This document shows positions 4,182 through 36,171 of a DNA stretch of 38,364 nucleotides, one piece after another. The first letter of the stretch is position 1, and every line of letters begins with the position of its first letter. Origin of the DNA: a virus; IMG/VR virus record IMGVR_UViG_3300031566_000167, positions 1 through 38,364 of that record. The stretch is one strand, 5' to 3'. The notes under the pieces are model-generated. The model had not been told where the DNA came from, did no database searches, and saw only the letters and a list, made by a program, of their open reading frames with translations. A program made the position numbers and the translations under genes.

Positions 4182-4227
4182 GTTCATAAGAGTCGGGTCA
4201 AATTTGCCCTGATGGGGTCACGAATTT
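4182..4227 (-). promoter_or_regulatory. Two-box promoter-like element, copy 1
   Basis: Coding strand: GTGACCC (4215-4221), 13 bp, then TTTGACCCGACTC and TTATGAAC (to 4182). This copy lacks one C of the usual CCCC and has TATGAA in place of TATAGAG. The TGA stop of the exonuclease gene lies inside box 1. The FkbM gene starts 24 nt downstream. It is one of eight copies with the same spacing. Confidence 0.7.
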
Positions 4228-5009
4228 GGGAATTTACAGATTTGTCTGGCGGCATACCGAATCATGCGGACAACCGCCATGGCATCCGCCACGGCGGTGT
4301 GCGCCACCTTGCCATCTATTCCAGCCCGCTCCATACATGTCTTCGAGCAGGGTAGCGTCTCGTCTTCCGGCCGCCAGAACAGCGGCGCAGGGTCCAGGGT
4401 GCGGTGATGGAAGAAGCGGTCGAAGCCACAGAGATCGAGGAATCCCCGGTCGAAACTGGCGAAGTTCTTTCCTGCGGGCGTAATACGCTTCTCGGTCAAC
4501 AGCCAGTCACATTCATGGAACATCCAATCCGAGAACTGACCGGCCAAATCCTGGATGGAACAGAACATCGGGTTGCGGCGGGAGCCGATCCACACACAGG
4601 CTGTACAGAGGCCATCATTCCGCCCGCCCTGGAGAACACCGCCGCAGGCGGGGCAAGCGTCCAGAAGAGGCTGTTCGGCGATCAGACGCAATAGATGCGG
4701 GTGCATCGACAGGGCATAGGGCTGACCGACGATGGCCTGGTGGGTAATGATGCGGTGGAATTTGGGTAACTCCGCGACTGGCTTGGACCAGTCATCAAAC
4801 ACGGCCCCGACTTCGAGAATCTGACAGGTCTCAGCCACCAGTCCTGTGGTCTCAATGTCGATGGAGACATAGGGCAACTGCATCGGCGCGATTGTCGGGG
4901 TGGCGCTAGTGTCACGGAAGTTGCCTTGCCAATGACATTTGGGGCAGTACGCAATACAGTCCGTTGCAGACTTCAGCACGGTTTCACAACTGGGGCATAG
5001 CTTCTTCAT
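4218..5009 (-). CDS. DnaQ-like DEDDh 3'-5' exonuclease with two zinc ribbons
   Basis: This 263-residue protein has an N-terminal zinc ribbon (Cys5-x2-Cys8, Cys22-x2-Cys25) and then an RNase T/DnaQ exonuclease fold. Exo I is SIDIETTGL (Asp51, Glu53), Exo II NFASFDRGF (Asp187) and Exo III HTAVADA (His237, Asp242), so all DEDDh catalytic residues are present. A second zinc ribbon (Cys119/122 and Cys135/138) is inserted between Exo I and Exo II, which is unusual. Such enzymes trim DNA or RNA 3' ends using two metal ions; here replication, repair or host nucleic acid decay is plausible. Its stop lies in a promoter-like element. Confidence 0.88.
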   Translation of the reverse strand: MKKLCPSCETVLKSATDCIAYCPKCHWQGNFRDTSATPTIAPMQLPYVSIDIETTGLVAETCQILEVGAVFDDWSKPVAELPKFHRIITHQAIVGQPYALSMHPHLLRLIAEQPLLDACPACGGVLQGGRNDGLCTACVWIGSRRNPMFCSIQDLAGQFSDWMFHECDWLLTEKRITPAGKNFASFDRGFLDLCGFDRFFHHRTLDPAPLFWRPEDETLPCSKTCMERAGIDGKVAHTAVADAMAVVRMIRYAARQICKFPNS

Positions 5010-5197
5010 GGTGAATTGATGATCTCGTTCAGGTAACTCAGAAACTCCGTGTTGGCTTGTAGTTCTTCCATCAGATCGGCTGACGGTCGCTGATTGGCCG
5101 CACGCATGGCACGCACGCAGTTTGACTTTTGCTCCACCTCGGCAGCAGTGCGTCTCATTACTCGGAGGGTTGCTTCATCTCTCATTTGCAGGTTCAT
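5006..5197 (-). CDS. Small helical hypothetical protein (63 aa)
   Basis: This 63-residue protein begins MNLQMRDEATLRVMRRTAAE and is predicted helical throughout, with charged heptad-like spacing. Its start overlaps the upstream stop by 4 nt, and its stop overlaps the exonuclease start by 4 nt, so it is translationally coupled on both sides. No family is recognised. Confidence 0.7.
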   Translation of the reverse strand: MNLQMRDEATLRVMRRTAAEVEQKSNCVRAMRAANQRPSADLMEELQANTEFLSYLNEIINSP

Positions 5198-5706: not shown

Positions 5707-5736
5707 TTCTCGGACTCCTCGGGCATTCTCAGACTC

Positions 5737-6570
5737 CTAACTCACGGATGGCTTGGACTTCTTCGCTCGTAAGCCTTTGGAGGGCTTCTTTGCGGACTTG
5801 GACGAAGCGGGCGTATTCTTCGGCTTCTTCCTGCCACTTGCGGATTGCTTCACGATACACTTCTTGGCACGCTCTCCAGGTGCCTTGTCCGCTGCCTTGG
5901 CAGGAGGAGCAGCCGAGGGTCTGCCGATGCTTGTTGCCTTCAACCCGGCACGGCGGGTCGTTCGGGTCGTAGACTTTTCCCCATCCGAGGCAGGCGAGGC
6001 AGGGCCACGTTTTCGGGTTTTCCGCGACCCAGGCTTGACTTCGGTGGAGGAAGTGTCGGGATCGGAAGTCGGCGAGGGACTTGTAGGGCTACAAGGGCTT
6101 GTGTCGTCGCCAGACGGTGATGCAGTCTCGGGGCATGGCTCCTCTTCCTTTTCTTCCACGTATTTGACATTGCGAGGCCGAATCAAGATGGAGAGCGTCT
6201 TGGGATTCATCTTTCTCTTGACCCAACACGGAAAGCCAAGCGGCATCCGGCCGAACAGTTCAGTCAAGCCCCTGATGCCGCTAACCTCGCAGGCTTTGCT
6301 CCATAGGCGCTTGTGATGCTCGCACGCCTCTTGGGCAGCCTTCATCGTTTTGTGTAGATGCCGACCAGCATTCACGAAGTCCCACATTTCACAGAACTCG
6401 CCCGCAAGGCCGCTGAAATTTGGGATTACGATTCGCACGCACGCCTCATAGCGGGCTGGCACGGTGACGCTGAAAACTTCCTTGCGCCAAGTGATACGGT
6501 AGTCTTCGCTGTACCATGTTTTTCTGGTCTTCTGGCTCTGGCCTCGCTTCTTTTTTCGCGCGAATTGCAT
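5737..6570 (-). CDS. Basic-tailed protein, possibly DNA-binding (277 aa)
   Basis: The ordered N-terminal half (about 1-145) begins MQFARKKKRGQSQKTRKTWY and has a Cys/Trp-containing helical region. Residues from about 150 on are low complexity: a short acidic stretch (EEKEEEP), a Ser/Pro/Thr/Asp run, then about 110 residues rich in Lys, Ala, Ser and Arg (KKPSKGLRAKKSKPS). Such tails resemble histone H1-like and HU-like C-termini and suggest DNA or RNA binding or compaction; this is inference. I set the start at ATG 6570, which overlaps the FmdB-like stop by one base (TGATG). An upstream GTG frame would overlap that gene entirely. Confidence 0.7.
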   Translation of the reverse strand: MQFARKKKRGQSQKTRKTWYSEDYRITWRKEVFSVTVPARYEACVRIVIPNFSGLAGEFCEMWDFVNAGRHLHKTMKAAQEACEHHKRLWSKACEVSGIRGLTELFGRMPLGFPCWVKRKMNPKTLSILIRPRNVKYVEEKEEEPCPETASPSGDDTSPCSPTSPSPTSDPDTSSTEVKPGSRKTRKRGPASPASDGEKSTTRTTRRAGLKATSIGRPSAAPPAKAADKAPGERAKKCIVKQSASGRKKPKNTPASSKSAKKPSKGLRAKKSKPSVS

Positions 6571-7620: not shown

Positions 7621-7856
7621 CAGTAGCAGTCCGGGAAGGGTTCATGCGGGTTGGACAGGTTGTGCTGTCCCGGCTCACTGTGCCAAACCTCACCATCGCC
7701 ACAACAGTCACAGACGGACACGTCATGGTTATCGTGGCTGGTGATCCAGTCGAGGATCACCTGCGGGTCGCCGGTCTCGTCGAAACGGGCCAGGGTCTCC
7801 TCGTCCACTTGATGAAGGTTGAGGAAGCCGGTGCCGTCGCAGCGGGTGCAGTTCAC
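7620..7856 (-). CDS. Small zinc-finger protein with DnaJ-like CxxCxGxG (78 aa)
   Basis: The 78-residue protein has CTRCDGTGF near its start and CDCCGDGEVW later, two CxxCxG units that should bind one zinc as in the DnaJ central domain. I chose a GTG start at 7856 because it forms a GTGA overlap with the methyltransferase stop and places the first cysteine at residue 3. A longer frame starting at 7949 would lie inside the methyltransferase. Role unknown; coupling to the methyltransferase suggests co-expression. Confidence 0.7.
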   Translation of the reverse strand: MNCTRCDGTGFLNLHQVDEETLARFDETGDPQVILDWITSHDNHDVSVCDCCGDGEVWHSEPGQHNLSNPHEPFPDCY

Positions 7857-8593
7857 AGTGTCAACTCCCAGCCGTCGCCGTTGAGGATCATGGCGTGCTC
7901 TTCGGCAATCTTCTCGCAGTAGCCGGGGTCGATCTCGATCAGGGTGCAAGGCCGACCGAGGCGTTTACACACTCGGAGTGTCGTGCCTGTGCCACCAAAG
8001 GGGTCTAAGACCGGCTCGCCAGGCGGGGTGGTCAGCTTGATGCACCGTTCGACTAGCCCTTCGTTCAGTTGCGTGGGGTGCCAGGGCCGGCGCTGTTTTG
8101 AGTTGCCGACGACACGAGTGAAATCGAATACGTCGCCGGGCACCCGCCCGCGAGGATCGGCCCGCTTGTCCCCGTTCTCTTGCCGCCATGACGGCACGCG
8201 AATGGAGTCGGGCAACAACGGGGCATCCGGCCAGCGGAACCGCCACAGCGGCCGGTGGTTGTTGCCCAGGTCGTGGTGGCAGTGCTGCCCAAAGCTGAAC
8301 GTCTGGACGCAGGGCTTGGCTTCAATGCCGCTGTGTTGCACCAGGCTGTCCACAATGCTGCCCAGGGCAAAGGTCCATTTCGCGTTGAACGAGAGCCAGA
8401 CCGTTTTCGCCCTAGTGGTGAAAGCGGTCAGCCAAAGCGCCAAAAGGTTGAGGTATTCGCCGTCTGGCATCTTGTCCTTGTAGGCGTCATAGCCCAGGTT
8501 GATGTTGTCCGGCGGGTCCACAAAAATGGTAGTCCAGTCATCTCGGTTTCCGGTAAGGAAATCGAGGCAGTCAGCGTTAATCAGTCGGTGCAT
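7853..8593 (-). CDS. DNA methyltransferase (N4-cytosine/N6-adenine type, motif order IV to I)
   Basis: This 246-residue amino-methyltransferase has the catalytic motif IV DPPDN at 26-30 and the SAM-binding motif I DPFGGTGTT at 197-205, preceded by HPTQLNEGL, typical of beta-class enzymes. DPPDN instead of DPPY is an aromatic loss seen in some N4-cytosine or inactive enzymes, so the target base is uncertain. No restriction endonuclease is adjacent, so self-protection against host restriction is the likely role. It is one of three DNA methyltransferases in the window. Confidence 0.88.
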   Translation of the reverse strand: MHRLINADCLDFLTGNRDDWTTIFVDPPDNINLGYDAYKDKMPDGEYLNLLALWLTAFTTRAKTVWLSFNAKWTFALGSIVDSLVQHSGIEAKPCVQTFSFGQHCHHDLGNNHRPLWRFRWPDAPLLPDSIRVPSWRQENGDKRADPRGRVPGDVFDFTRVVGNSKQRRPWHPTQLNEGLVERCIKLTTPPGEPVLDPFGGTGTTLRVCKRLGRPCTLIEIDPGYCEKIAEEHAMILNGDGWELTL

Positions 8594-22351: not shown

Positions 22352-24852
22352 ACCGGTGCCCTTATCTTCACTGTTCGTGAGCCGCCCTTCTTCTCAGCCC
22401 AATTGTCTTGTGCTTCATTCCATGTGAGGCCAATCAAAGGCACCTTTGAACGAAAGGACTCAACAGCTATACCAACCGCCTCTGTAACCTTCTCCACGTA
22501 ATCCGGGTGAGTCGCCACCATCAATTCATCGTGTACGTTGAAGGGGCCAACATAGAGTGGGTGAACACCCACCGGCTGCAAGTCCCAGATCGCCCGTTGC
22601 ACGCTCTTCGTGATCTGGGCACCCGGGCTCTGGATTTCATGGTTCGCGGCAGCCCGCATGTTGGCCGCCTGCATGGCGAAGGCTGCTCCATAGAGGGCCG
22701 ACTGCGATGCGCCGCCGGCTGTCTGGACGCGATCACGCCGGACCACCTTGATCTTCACGTCCTTCCAGTGCTTGGGCGGCTTGTTGGCCAAGTCGTAGAG
22801 GGCTTTGCAGATACGGTTTTCCAAAGTGAAATAGCGACGAAAGCCAAGGAAGGATTCCACGTAATTGGCCGGGTCCACCCAGACAACCTGTGTGCCGATA
22901 CCCCCGGGCTGTCGCATTGAGCAGAATGCCTCAAACACCCGCCCTCGCCACTTCTTGACACCCTTGTATCGCTTGCCGAAGGCGTCAATGGCATCACGAG
23001 CATCCTGTTCCCTGACGCCCAGCTTATTCATCAGCGTCGTGTGATCGCCGCCATAGAGGATGGCACCAAAGAAGCCTTGCTTGCCCTTCGTGTATAGATC
23101 ATTCTCCATACCGGCTGTTGCCTTGATCTCCTCATAGGTGTAACCAGGAAAGAGGGCCATGCCAAAAAGAGCATGAATCTTCTTTCCTTGCTGCAACTCA
23201 GCACGCAAGGCGTCATCGTCGCACACGGCATCGGCAATCGTCACCTCGAAAGCATCGAAGTCGCCGCCACAGAGGGTGTAATTGTCCCAGGCCAGCGGAA
23301 ACTGCTTGCGAACTTCCTTCGTGGCCTTAATACCCTGGGCGTTGAGGCCATCTGACCCGCTCATGCGGGAGGAGAGCGCACCAATCACATTGAAGCTGGC
23401 ATGAAACTTGCCAGCCAAAAGCAGCTTCTTATACAGTTCCACTTCCTTGGCAGCCGTCTTCACGTTGAGAATCTGCTTGCTTCGCACGGCCGCCGGATGT
23501 TTGCCCACAGGTACATCCCCCTCACCGTGACAGCGGGCACACTGCGGGTCCGACCCCTCGCAACGGGTGCAGGGTTCAGGCTCTCCGACGAGGCCCAGCC
23601 CGCCGCACTCCGGGCAGGGCGACGGCTTAATGTCGCTGCCCTCGGGTGGCGGGTCCAGAGTCACAACACTCTTGCCCTTGCAGACTGGGCACTGCTCACC
23701 GATCTCCCACTTGACAATGGCTTCGAGGTTGGTCTTCCTCGTGCTTTCTTCAAGGATCACCGCCTCGGTGTCATCACAGGCAGCCGTGATGTAGGCCCGC
23801 ACCTCACTCGGCTTATTGATGTTGACCGGGCTGGCATCTACCCTAGCCTGAGCCTCGGCCAGCAGACCGTTCATACCAGCATGATTGATCTTGAAGCCGC
23901 GCCAGCGGATGCTGGCGACCATACAGGTGAGGATTGAGTCATCATCGCCGTGGGGCGGATCGCCGAAGTGATGATCGAGTGCCCGGGTGTAGACAATATC
24001 GTCGTTGGCGTACTCGCGGGCGTTCTCATGTGTGCGCCAGTGTTCAACGAACCTGTGGATCACGCCGGGCCAGGCGTAACCTTTGACTCGCACCTCGCCT
24101 TTAGGAGTTTTGCCCCAGATGGCCCAATCCTTCTCCGGCGTGGAGATGGCCAGGGCGGTAGGGGCGTAGCCCAACTCAATAGGTCGCCAATCCGTAGGTG
24201 GTTCCACATCCTTGTAGTGAAACTTGGGCTTCAACTTCAGAACATGCTCAGCCAAAAACTTCAAGCCGCCGGCCGGGTTGAACCGAAGCACCACGTCCTT
24301 GAAATCCGGGTCGATGTCGCCATAGCGGTCATGGCGGTCAAAGACCTGCCACTTGGGAGCCTCTGGATCGCTGGACTTGGCAAAGTAGATGTTGTCCAGT
24401 TCGATCCGTTTTTCCAACTCGGCCGCCAGAGCATAAGCTAGTGCGATGGGCACCCGCTTGATGCGGACATCATTGCGGCTCATAAGCGATTGCATCGGAC
24501 CCTTGCGGCTGTGCATCAGCAAGTCAAGGGCGCTGTACGGCTTGACGCAGGGGCCATTTTGCGCGGCCGGCTCCAGCATAGCGATCTCGTTGACGTGCTC
24601 GATGGGTAGCCACTCGGGATCGCAGAGCCGGAGAATGGTGTAGAGTTTCGTGATATGGAACCAATCGAACGAGAGGTTGAAGCCCACAACGATATTCTCA
24701 CAGAACCACTCGATCAGAACCAATGTCTCTCGCACTGTCTGATGCCACACCTCATACAAATGAATGGGTCCATCTTCTAGCGCGTATTGCAGGAGAACCG
24801 GCATCCCATGCAGCCCACACGTCTCAGAATCAAGGTAGACTTTTCTAGGCAT
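22348..24852 (-). CDS. Family A DNA polymerase (T7/Pol I type) with zinc module in the thumb
   Basis: The 834-residue enzyme has an N-terminal 3'-5' exonuclease: YLDSETCG (Asp8, Glu10), GFNLSFDW (Asp63) and YANDDIV (Tyr281, Asp285). The polymerase domain has motif A GGDFDAFEVT (Asp531), motif B KQGFFGAILYGG (Lys591, Tyr600) and motif C NVHDEL (His774, Asp775, Glu776). It lacks a 5' nuclease domain, as in T7 gp5. Residues 388-441 hold four CxxC pairs (388/391, 413/416, 428/431, 438/441) with CxGxG-like spacing, as in the DnaJ zinc domain. This insert lies in the thumb, where T7 polymerase has its thioredoxin-binding loop, and may hold a processivity partner or DNA. ATG 24852 was chosen because the exonuclease motif starts at once. 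Confidence 0.95.
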   Translation of the reverse strand: MPRKVYLDSETCGLHGMPVLLQYALEDGPIHLYEVWHQTVRETLVLIEWFCENIVVGFNLSFDWFHITKLYTILRLCDPEWLPIEHVNEIAMLEPAAQNGPCVKPYSALDLLMHSRKGPMQSLMSRNDVRIKRVPIALAYALAAELEKRIELDNIYFAKSSDPEAPKWQVFDRHDRYGDIDPDFKDVVLRFNPAGGLKFLAEHVLKLKPKFHYKDVEPPTDWRPIELGYAPTALAISTPEKDWAIWGKTPKGEVRVKGYAWPGVIHRFVEHWRTHENAREYANDDIVYTRALDHHFGDPPHGDDDSILTCMVASIRWRGFKINHAGMNGLLAEAQARVDASPVNINKPSEVRAYITAACDDTEAVILEESTRKTNLEAIVKWEIGEQCPVCKGKSVVTLDPPPEGSDIKPSPCPECGGLGLVGEPEPCTRCEGSDPQCARCHGEGDVPVGKHPAAVRSKQILNVKTAAKEVELYKKLLLAGKFHASFNVIGALSSRMSGSDGLNAQGIKATKEVRKQFPLAWDNYTLCGGDFDAFEVTIADAVCDDDALRAELQQGKKIHALFGMALFPGYTYEEIKATAGMENDLYTKGKQGFFGAILYGGDHTTLMNKLGVREQDARDAIDAFGKRYKGVKKWRGRVFEAFCSMRQPGGIGTQVVWVDPANYVESFLGFRRYFTLENRICKALYDLANKPPKHWKDVKIKVVRRDRVQTAGGASQSALYGAAFAMQAANMRAAANHEIQSPGAQITKSVQRAIWDLQPVGVHPLYVGPFNVHDELMVATHPDYVEKVTEAVGIAVESFRSKVPLIGLTWNEAQDNWAEKKGGSRTVKIRAPV

Positions 24853-34182: not shown

Positions 34183-36159
34183 TTAAACCGCTTCCTCCTC
34201 GATCTGAAGCCCATCATCCGTGCCCTTGGGCTCGTCCCACTTCACGCCACCCATGATTTCGCCCATCGTCATTAGCTCCAGCTTGCGATTGGCGCAGATG
34301 ATCTCGATCACCCGCTCGTCGCTCGGTAAATGAATCAGGTCCACGATGACACAGCCGAGGTTTTCATCCATGCCCTTACGGTGGATTCGGTCTTCACTTT
34401 GGATGCGGTACTCGGGCTTATGACTGTTGGACCAGTAGACCGCCATGCGGGACTCAACAAGCGTTAGGCTCATACCCCCGGACTCGGGATGGGCGACAAA
34501 GGCGACACGCGGATGCTTCTCCATGTCGGCCCAGTAGTCCAGCGGCTCCTCGCCCGTGACAACGGCACCCTCATGGGTGGTGACCTTGAAGCCACGGCCG
34601 TCGCACCGCACCACGTCCCATCCCTGGCTCTGGCACAGTTTCGTCACGCGATCCACGCTGCCGGTGAAGCTGGCAAAGATCACGATGCGGCCGACTTCCT
34701 CGCACTCCTCCAGGAGCAGCATCAGAGCGGCATCCTTGGGGCACGGCACCTCACGGGTTTCGCGCACGTACTTGGGCACCTCGCGACTGCCACCGCACAG
34801 CGGACAGACGGCCTCGCGCTCGACCAGCCGTTCCTTCGTCTCGGGATCGAGCAGGTCGATCACCTCGTAGGTCTTCTCTTCATCCAGCGGGTCAACCCAT
34901 TCGCGGACCTTGCCCTTGATACAGTGCTTGCAGCGGGTGGTGCCGTCCTTGATCTCGCGATACTGGAAGCCGTCGCTCAATTCCCGCAGCAGGGTCATAC
35001 CCGTGATGGTGTTCTGGGCCGACTGCACAACCACCTGGGCCACCCGCAGGGTGCTCGGCGTCGGCTTGCAAAAGACCTTGCGATACCGCTTGTCCGGCAG
35101 GTTGAGGCAATCCTTCTTGTGCTTGATGATGGCGAGGCCCTTCAGGCGCTCGTACATGAAGGCAACCTCGTTCTTCGAGGGCTGGTAGACGTGGAAGTCA
35201 TCAGGGTCTTCACACAACTCCGAGTGGCAGTCGTCGTCTTCCCACCCTCCGCAGATTTCGCACTTTGCCTCGTTGTCCTTCCAGCCGATCCGCTTGTTGA
35301 AGGCGACTCCACTGTCAAATTCCTGCTTGACCATGAAGGCCAGCCGTTGCTCCAGCGCTCGTGGACTTCCTTCCTTGAGAAAGCCCGGCCAAACGATCTC
35401 GCACTGCGCCCACCAGTCGATAGGCGACTTGGGGCTCGGCGTGCCGGACATGAGGATCACGTAGCCCTCGTGCCCGTACTTCTCGCGGATCAGGTCGGCC
35501 AACATCTGCGCGGCCTTCGTCCGCTGCGCGGTCGCCGTCTTCAGTCTCGACGACTCGTCACAGATCACGCCCCGCACAACCGGAGTGCCCGGGGTCCATT
35601 CATCCATCCGGCGGACCAGACCCTCGTAGGTCATAAACTCGACATTGAAGGCGCTGGCGGGGAAGTTCCACTTGCGGAACTCCCGCTTGATGTTCGGGAT
35701 GCTCGTCTTCGGGCCGACCCACCACCACGTCGGGATGCCGGAGCGCTCGATCACCTCCTGGGCCGCCAGCGTCTTGCCTGTGCCCATTTCGGCAGCAAAT
35801 ATCTGATAGTGGTAGGTGAGGCCCGCGTCCGACAGGTCACACTGGTGTGCCATCAGCGGGCGCTCATACTTGCGTTGCACAACCGGCCGGTCAAACCAGG
35901 CGTAGACGTTCTCGCCCATGAGATAGCCGAGACTGAAGCTGTTCCGCTGACAGTCTTCGATGGACCAAATCTTCTTCGGGTTCGGCTCCTCGAATCCGTG
36001 CCACTTCGAGCCCTTCATGCTCTTGATTTCATCCTTCAGAGCGAAAGGACTCTTGAGGAAAAAGATGCGCCCGTCCTTTCGCTCGATCAAGGCCGTGGAC
36101 TGGACCAAGGTGCCCTTGGGGGTTCGGTGTCGCAGCTTGACTTGTTTGATCTCAGGCAT
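34183..36159 (-). CDS. SNF2-type (superfamily 2) helicase with zinc inserts
   Basis: The 658-residue protein has Walker A AEMGTGKT (123-130), Walker B-type CDESSRLK (200-207, DESS box), motif III LMSGTPSP (236-243) and a C-terminal helicase domain ending with SEDRIHRKGMDEN (motif VI). Two cysteine-rich insertions (CEICGGWEDDDC with a nearby Cys pair, and CKHC/CPLCGGS) are likely zinc fingers. The family remodels or translocates on DNA using ATP; phage versions aid replication or late transcription. ATG 36159 follows GAGAG. It is the largest gene of its transcription unit. Confidence 0.9.
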   Translation of the reverse strand: MPEIKQVKLRHRTPKGTLVQSTALIERKDGRIFFLKSPFALKDEIKSMKGSKWHGFEEPNPKKIWSIEDCQRNSFSLGYLMGENVYAWFDRPVVQRKYERPLMAHQCDLSDAGLTYHYQIFAAEMGTGKTLAAQEVIERSGIPTWWWVGPKTSIPNIKREFRKWNFPASAFNVEFMTYEGLVRRMDEWTPGTPVVRGVICDESSRLKTATAQRTKAAQMLADLIREKYGHEGYVILMSGTPSPKSPIDWWAQCEIVWPGFLKEGSPRALEQRLAFMVKQEFDSGVAFNKRIGWKDNEAKCEICGGWEDDDCHSELCEDPDDFHVYQPSKNEVAFMYERLKGLAIIKHKKDCLNLPDKRYRKVFCKPTPSTLRVAQVVVQSAQNTITGMTLLRELSDGFQYREIKDGTTRCKHCIKGKVREWVDPLDEEKTYEVIDLLDPETKERLVEREAVCPLCGGSREVPKYVRETREVPCPKDAALMLLLEECEEVGRIVIFASFTGSVDRVTKLCQSQGWDVVRCDGRGFKVTTHEGAVVTGEEPLDYWADMEKHPRVAFVAHPESGGMSLTLVESRMAVYWSNSHKPEYRIQSEDRIHRKGMDENLGCVIVDLIHLPSDERVIEIICANRKLELMTMGEIMGGVKWDEPKGTDDGLQIEEEAV

Positions 36160-36171
36160 CGAAACTCTCAA

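Follow-up and report, generated by a model that had tools for sequence, protein, structure and literature searches.

A cysteine-rich module at the thumb tip of a family A phage DNA polymerase and its J-domain-bearing versions in relatives

Introduction

What might an insert of paired cysteines do in the thumb of a replicative DNA polymerase? The question is raised by a viral DNA of 38,364 nucleotides, analysed here at its full length and referred to as the window, which encodes a family A polymerase with eight cysteines between two thumb helices. Some phages have long been known to need DnaK and DnaJ for replication; to our knowledge, this dependence runs through separate proteins. It has also been shown that processivity in T7 is gained through an insertion in the thumb, the thioredoxin-binding loop at residues 258-333 of gp5 (PMC3556154). 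A preliminary description of the window had read the cysteines as a DnaJ-like zinc module at the site equivalent to the T7 loop, perhaps serving as a processivity device or as a docking site for a factor. Here, we ask where the module lies, what it resembles, how it varies among relatives, and which function is best compatible with that variation.

Results

The gene (Table 1) begins with an ATG that overlaps the stop codon of the upstream gene, and its product carries N-terminal 3'-5' exonuclease motifs (LDSETCGL). PF00476 matches the polymerase at 72.1 bits, above the curated cut-off of 34.3. An AlphaFold2 model computed from an 82-row alignment has a mean pLDDT of 92.8 and resembles the Bst, Klenow and G20c Pol I folds with Z scores of about 19-21; Bst Pol I superimposes over 518 residues (Z 20.6, rmsd 3.5) with the same layout of exonuclease, palm, fingers and thumb. 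The VIA and Foldseek match lists for the model are filled by the polymerase fold. Among phage and plasmid records, only distant polymerases were found, with less than 60% identity over at most 29% of the query.

In the model, helices at residues 324-339, 348-356 and 373-380 lead up to the insert and a long helix at 453-480 follows it, while alignment with T7 gp5 and Klenow places the insert after T7 EVLEGVRV (367-374). The thumb alignment with T7 is weak between helices H and H1, and its clear anchors are VLE.. and helix I. By model and alignment, the insert connects thumb helix H2 to helix I, at the thumb tip. Thus, the AlphaFold2 model and the comparison with T7 gp5 bear out the earlier placement of the cysteines in the thumb. 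The proposed equivalence with the T7 thioredoxin-binding loop does not hold, since that loop is placed between helices H and H1, about 40 residues earlier. For the same reason, the insert does not match a T7-type thioredoxin-binding domain in its position.

Table 1. Features of the window polymerase, with positions in the window
Feature	Position	Strand	Basis or remark
Family A DNA polymerase, 834 codons	22348..24852	(-)	PF00476 match and Pol I-like fold match
Thumb helix H, residues 324-339	23836..23883	(-)	AlphaFold2 model; name via T7 gp5 and Klenow alignment
Thumb helices H1/H2 region, residues 348-380, directly ahead of insert	23713..23811	(-)	Model and alignment
Thumb-tip insert, residues 382-452	23497..23709	(-)	Alignment and AlphaFold2 model
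First predicted zinc ribbon, C388 C391 C413 C416	23605..23691	(-)	In part of the clade only; comes and goes as a two-pair unit
Second (core) predicted zinc ribbon, C428 C431 C438 C441	23530..23571	(-)	Cysteines kept in 76/82 aligned relatives
Thumb helix I, residues 453-480, directly after insert; starts at conserved HPAA..R..IL	23413..23496	(-)	Model and alignment
Fingers-base junction (ALRAEL / KIHALFG, residues 553-558), empty in window	23179..23196	(-)	Relatives' alignment

The eight cysteines form four CxxC pairs, in the motifs CPVCKGKS, CPECGGLG, CTRCEGSD and CARCHGEG (nt 23530-23691, minus strand). The count and pairing given in the preliminary description are therefore confirmed, and its span of 23529-23688 is correct to within 3 nt. 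When the window polymerase was shuffled 20,000 times, four CxxC within 62 residues never arose. Since 76 of 82 aligned relatives retain the core-ribbon cysteines, the eight cysteines are almost certainly zinc sites. CxxC or CxxCxGxG motifs also occur in the window frames 7623-7964, 4221-5174 and 5732-6088 (-), such that zinc-ribbon-like sequences recur in this genome. A helicase encoded at 34183-36171 (-), matching phrog_62 at 1.2e-48, has CxxC pairs of its own (CEIC, CKHC and CPLC), as does the related helicase of L304.

The likeness to DnaJ is partial. Two of the four motifs have the CxxCxGxG form, and PF00684, the DnaJ central zinc domain, aligns with residues 386-434 (E 3.3e-5), but its 24.5 bits fall below the curated cut-off of 32.7. 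We rejected this domain as a label for the window module, and of the earlier DnaJ-like reading only a partial resemblance stands. The first two CxxC pairs are gained or lost together among relatives, whereas the core pairs, C428-C441, are kept in most. The first ribbon of L010 is a C-x3-H variant (CPQQH..CEVC); those of L060 and L081 are similar and short. The behaviour of the first two pairs as a unit, together with these variants, suggests tandem two-pair ribbons (1+2, 3+4) rather than the nested sites of DnaJ (1+4, 2+3), and each CxxC-CxxC unit would then hold one zinc.

Profile scans of viral contigs yielded 87 distinct polymerases, including that of the window, and 20 further loci were examined (L243 by hand). 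All of the approximately 90 relatives belong to uncultured phages or prophage-like regions. Most of them have one ribbon, the window and the L012/L061 group have two, and L082 has 14 cysteines; the ribbon is absent, or the loop free of cysteines, in L044, L045, L047, L085, L088 and L093 and in eleven of the 20 further loci. Judged by these sequences, the H2/I thumb loop is an insertion hotspot, empty in some polymerases and elsewhere filled by one to three ribbons or by a ribbon that encloses a J-domain. Thumb modules that lack a J-domain have a negative net charge in 52 of 71 cases (median -2), the value for the window insert (residues 382-451) being -6. A second cysteine module, at the fingers base between palm motif A and KIHALFG, is present in 22 of 82 relatives (e.g. 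L004-L007, L017 and L030) and is mostly basic; the L030 copy exceeds the PF00684 cut-off, with 34.0 bits.

Inserts also occur elsewhere in these polymerases. The L010 and L243 enzymes have an extra palm insert of about 46 residues (e.g. NHGTVLRHEKVMQGGQEVIVAHIATLSIENGVEVRKEIVVPQEYEKQ) ahead of KVVRRDR, which L013 and L059 probably share, given their longer matches at that site. An acidic insert, LTDPALxLDDEHDDEEVV, separates the exonuclease and polymerase parts in L004-L007 and L009 (alignment A1, columns 266-300) and is absent from the window.

A J-domain replaces the short loop inside the core ribbon in only five of about 87 polymerases, namely L005 (= L011), L006 (= L016), L036, L057 and L061, so that it is flanked by one CxxC pair on either side. 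PF00226 matches all five with 32.6 to 44.9 bits, above its cut-off of 27.8 (E-values 2.9e-11, 8.6e-11, 1.3e-11, 8.9e-8 and 1.5e-8, in the order above). HPD plus Y, R, L, F and K are invariant in the five domains, which are themselves only 44-65% identical. HPD falls between helices II and III in each, the helices having been modelled in L061 (mean pLDDT 91.8), where they span residues 430-435, 444-458 and 466-487 in a block with pLDDT of about 77-95. With a profile built from the five domains, the match is at about 1e-12 for CbpA and DnaJ and at 1.2e-6 for SV40 large T. What we take to be the equivalents of DnaJ K/R26, R/H27, HPD, F47 and K48 are kept, and R22, presumably a DnaK-contacting residue, is replaced in all five. 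Of 75 other viral J-domain loci, most have the domain at the N-terminus of a DnaJ-like protein and none has it inside such a ribbon. As assembled, the L036 gene (4995-7133) is shortened by a clean in-frame deletion that removes about 205 residues from the fingers and palm and, with them, its PF00476 match. PF00226 has no match across the whole window contig; hence, the window polymerase is without a J-domain.

The J-domain of the polymerase is the sole one in each of the five contigs, where no second copy was found. Eleven phage contigs, the five included, have no Hsp70 gene, so the partner of the J-domain would be the host DnaK. In a search of open-licence papers, nothing relevant emerged on family A phage polymerases with a J-domain or zinc module, and the fusion is apparently undescribed.

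Several features of the five J-domains bear on their history. On a quick tree made without the module columns, the five polymerases are scattered and imply five changes, at least three of which are forced by well supported branches. L061 and L057 are 91% identical outside the module but only 56% within their J-domains, and the corresponding values for L006 and L005 are 90% and 44%. Third-position G+C of the J segment is, in all five, below that predicted for its residues from the codon usage of the gene itself; no draw out of 20,000 was as low for L061 or L006, and simulated P was 0.010 to 0.017 for L036, L057 and L005. The five domains group together among the sampled viral J-domains, with values of 93/70 from 52 columns, a grouping that is not firmly supported. 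Because the J-domains are far more divergent than the polymerases around them, depart from the codon usage of their genes and appear at scattered points of the tree, we read them as an exchangeable cassette, one type of J-domain having apparently been passed among polymerases and placed each time at the same site. The pattern could instead have arisen through many losses or through rapid change driven by selection.

A first scan of genomes with the whole-protein profile gave no match. A C-terminal profile identified three Planctomycetota metagenome-assembled genomes with 63-66% identity to the C-terminal query, all three of which encode DnaK-like Hsp70s; no further polymerase copy was found in 294 Planctomycetota genomes, one of which was already known. 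The polymerase of L304 (G066:C1) is encoded about 24 kb into a contig of 444 kb and has conserved neighbours, a ParB-like gene upstream and a VRR-NUC-like gene downstream. Since the same contig carries infB- and nusA-like genes near 300 kb (recognised by eye), L304 is likely a prophage in a bacterial (Planctomycetota) chromosome, which gives a hint as to the host of this polymerase family.

Discussion

We propose that the two-ribbon zinc module is a protein-docking platform, and that versions with a J-domain recruit the host DnaK to the viral replication machinery; we put the probability of this reading at roughly one half. The ribbon module would stand out from the thumb next to the freshly synthesised duplex and there offer a docking surface. 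Protein docking is favoured for the thumb ribbons because they are mostly acidic, while the fingers-base module is mostly basic, and the J-domain cassettes of five relatives give the idea a concrete candidate partner. In those five, the platform would tether an Hsp70-activating J-domain to the polymerase and so bring DnaK to the replication machinery. In SV40, replication of the viral DNA involves a J-domain of the T antigens. Once recruited, DnaK might remodel, or help to assemble, the working complexes of the polymerase, in a manner comparable to that seen with lambda, P1 and SV40 large T; DnaK and DnaJ take apart the O-P-DnaB complex of lambda and also act on RepA dimers of P1 (PMC8215388). 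Against recruitment of DnaK count the replacement of R22 in all five J-domains and the small number of J versions, one of which, L036, is short of part of its fingers and palm as assembled. The DnaK idea is not directly applicable to the window polymerase, which is without a J-domain and whose two ribbons probably bind some phage or host replication protein. That phage polymerases of this family activate the host DnaK at the fork through a DnaJ-type co-chaperone carried in the thumb, the J cassette in a zinc ribbon, with the window representing the J-less state, is a more specific proposal that we make tentatively. We thus keep the docking site of the preliminary description, with the host DnaK as candidate partner in the J versions; the processivity role that it also suggested is unsupported by any data.

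An unlikely alternative is that the zinc module itself binds DNA, acting over the primer-template duplex as a processivity device that replaces the T7 thioredoxin clamp. Its location at the thumb tip would suit this function, no beta clamp was found in 15 related contigs, and T7 owes its processivity to a thumb insertion (PMC3556154). However, direct gripping of DNA is argued against by the acidity of the module in 52 of 71 relatives without a J-domain, the window among them; the module that is mostly basic is the one at the fingers base, absent from the window, and six aligned and eleven further relatives manage without a ribbon. We also doubt that the loop is simply a permissive site at which ribbons and J-domains accumulate harmlessly, without dedicated function. 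The varied content of the loop, from 0 to 14 cysteines with or without a J-domain, the existence of zinc-free relatives and the scatter of J-domains on the tree are what such a site would predict, but the core cysteines are kept in nearly all aligned polymerases (76/82 rows), and HPD, which is dispensable for the fold, is intact in five diverged J-domains.

It is very unlikely that, as in T7, the cysteines are bound or redox-switched by a thioredoxin of the phage or the host. A thioredoxin-family gene is indeed common: two overlapping sets of related contigs, many of them fragmentary, carry it in 13 of 15 and 18 of 49 cases. Yet most of the copies read start with a signal or lipobox (e.g. ..LGCEPP, ..FAGCEAP), a few, such as L203, being without one, and those of the L201-L218 contigs (e.g. 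L201, L204, L213 and L217) mostly look like exported lipoproteins or membrane-anchored proteins. Because most appear to be exported, phage thioredoxins are poor candidates for a cytoplasmic subunit of the T7 kind, and we discount them as likely partners of the polymerase. In addition, the paired CxxC ribbons resemble metal sites rather than the basic loop of T7, and, because no thioredoxin match was obtained in the basal clade, whether or not its members carry zinc ribbons, any association of thioredoxin with the ribbon is inseparable from phylogeny. We give almost no credence to the J-domain insertions being assembly chimeras: all sequences are metagenome contigs and the in-frame deletion in L036 is suspicious, but five distinct J sequences occupy the same in-frame site in five contigs with intact frames, and L005 and L011 come under two metagenome ids, although their identity over 9,995 nt means that they are possibly the same population.

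If the proposed recruitment of DnaK is correct, a J-domain in the thumb of a replicative polymerase physically ties a chaperone to the enzyme, and the action of Hsp70 on a working replisome becomes testable. The loops, which range from no ribbon through one and two to three and include those with a J-domain, form a natural series in which to study how thumb insertions serve polymerases, and the zinc module would be a second solution to set beside the T7 thioredoxin clamp. An accessory insert at the thumb tip is of a kind already known; the J-domain fusion in the same loop of relatives is apparently new.

The solved structure with the best sequence match is the DNA polymerase I of Thermus phage G20c (7r0k; phmmer 4.7e-12), whose fold is also among the closest (Z 18.9). 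In the alignment, it has no cysteine module at the H2/I loop, and its paper makes no mention of zinc. T7 gene 5 polymerase resembles the window enzyme in being a replicative family A polymerase of a phage and in bearing an accessory module at the tip of its thumb. Its insert, at residues 258-333, lies between H and H1 and binds thioredoxin, whereas the insert of the window family follows H2 (about T7 374/375), is of zinc type and is mostly acidic. Class A DnaJ shares with the module its CxxC repeats, some of them CxxCxGxG, and with five relatives a true J-domain with HPD. It differs in that the polymerase module is embedded in another enzyme, with the J-domain inside a ribbon rather than N-terminal, with ribbons that are probably tandem instead of nested and, in the window, with a PF00684 match below the cut-off; nor was a G/F region or beta-sandwich seen with the polymerase module. 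The J-domain protein Rki of phage RB43 engages the host DnaK in an HPD-dependent manner (PMC3486835), as we predict for the polymerase J-domains, but Rki is a separate protein that acts on DnaK and sigma32, outside the polymerase. SV40 large T is, like the five polymerases, a viral replication protein with a J-domain of its own; there, however, the domain is N-terminal and belongs to the helicase of an animal virus rather than to a polymerase.
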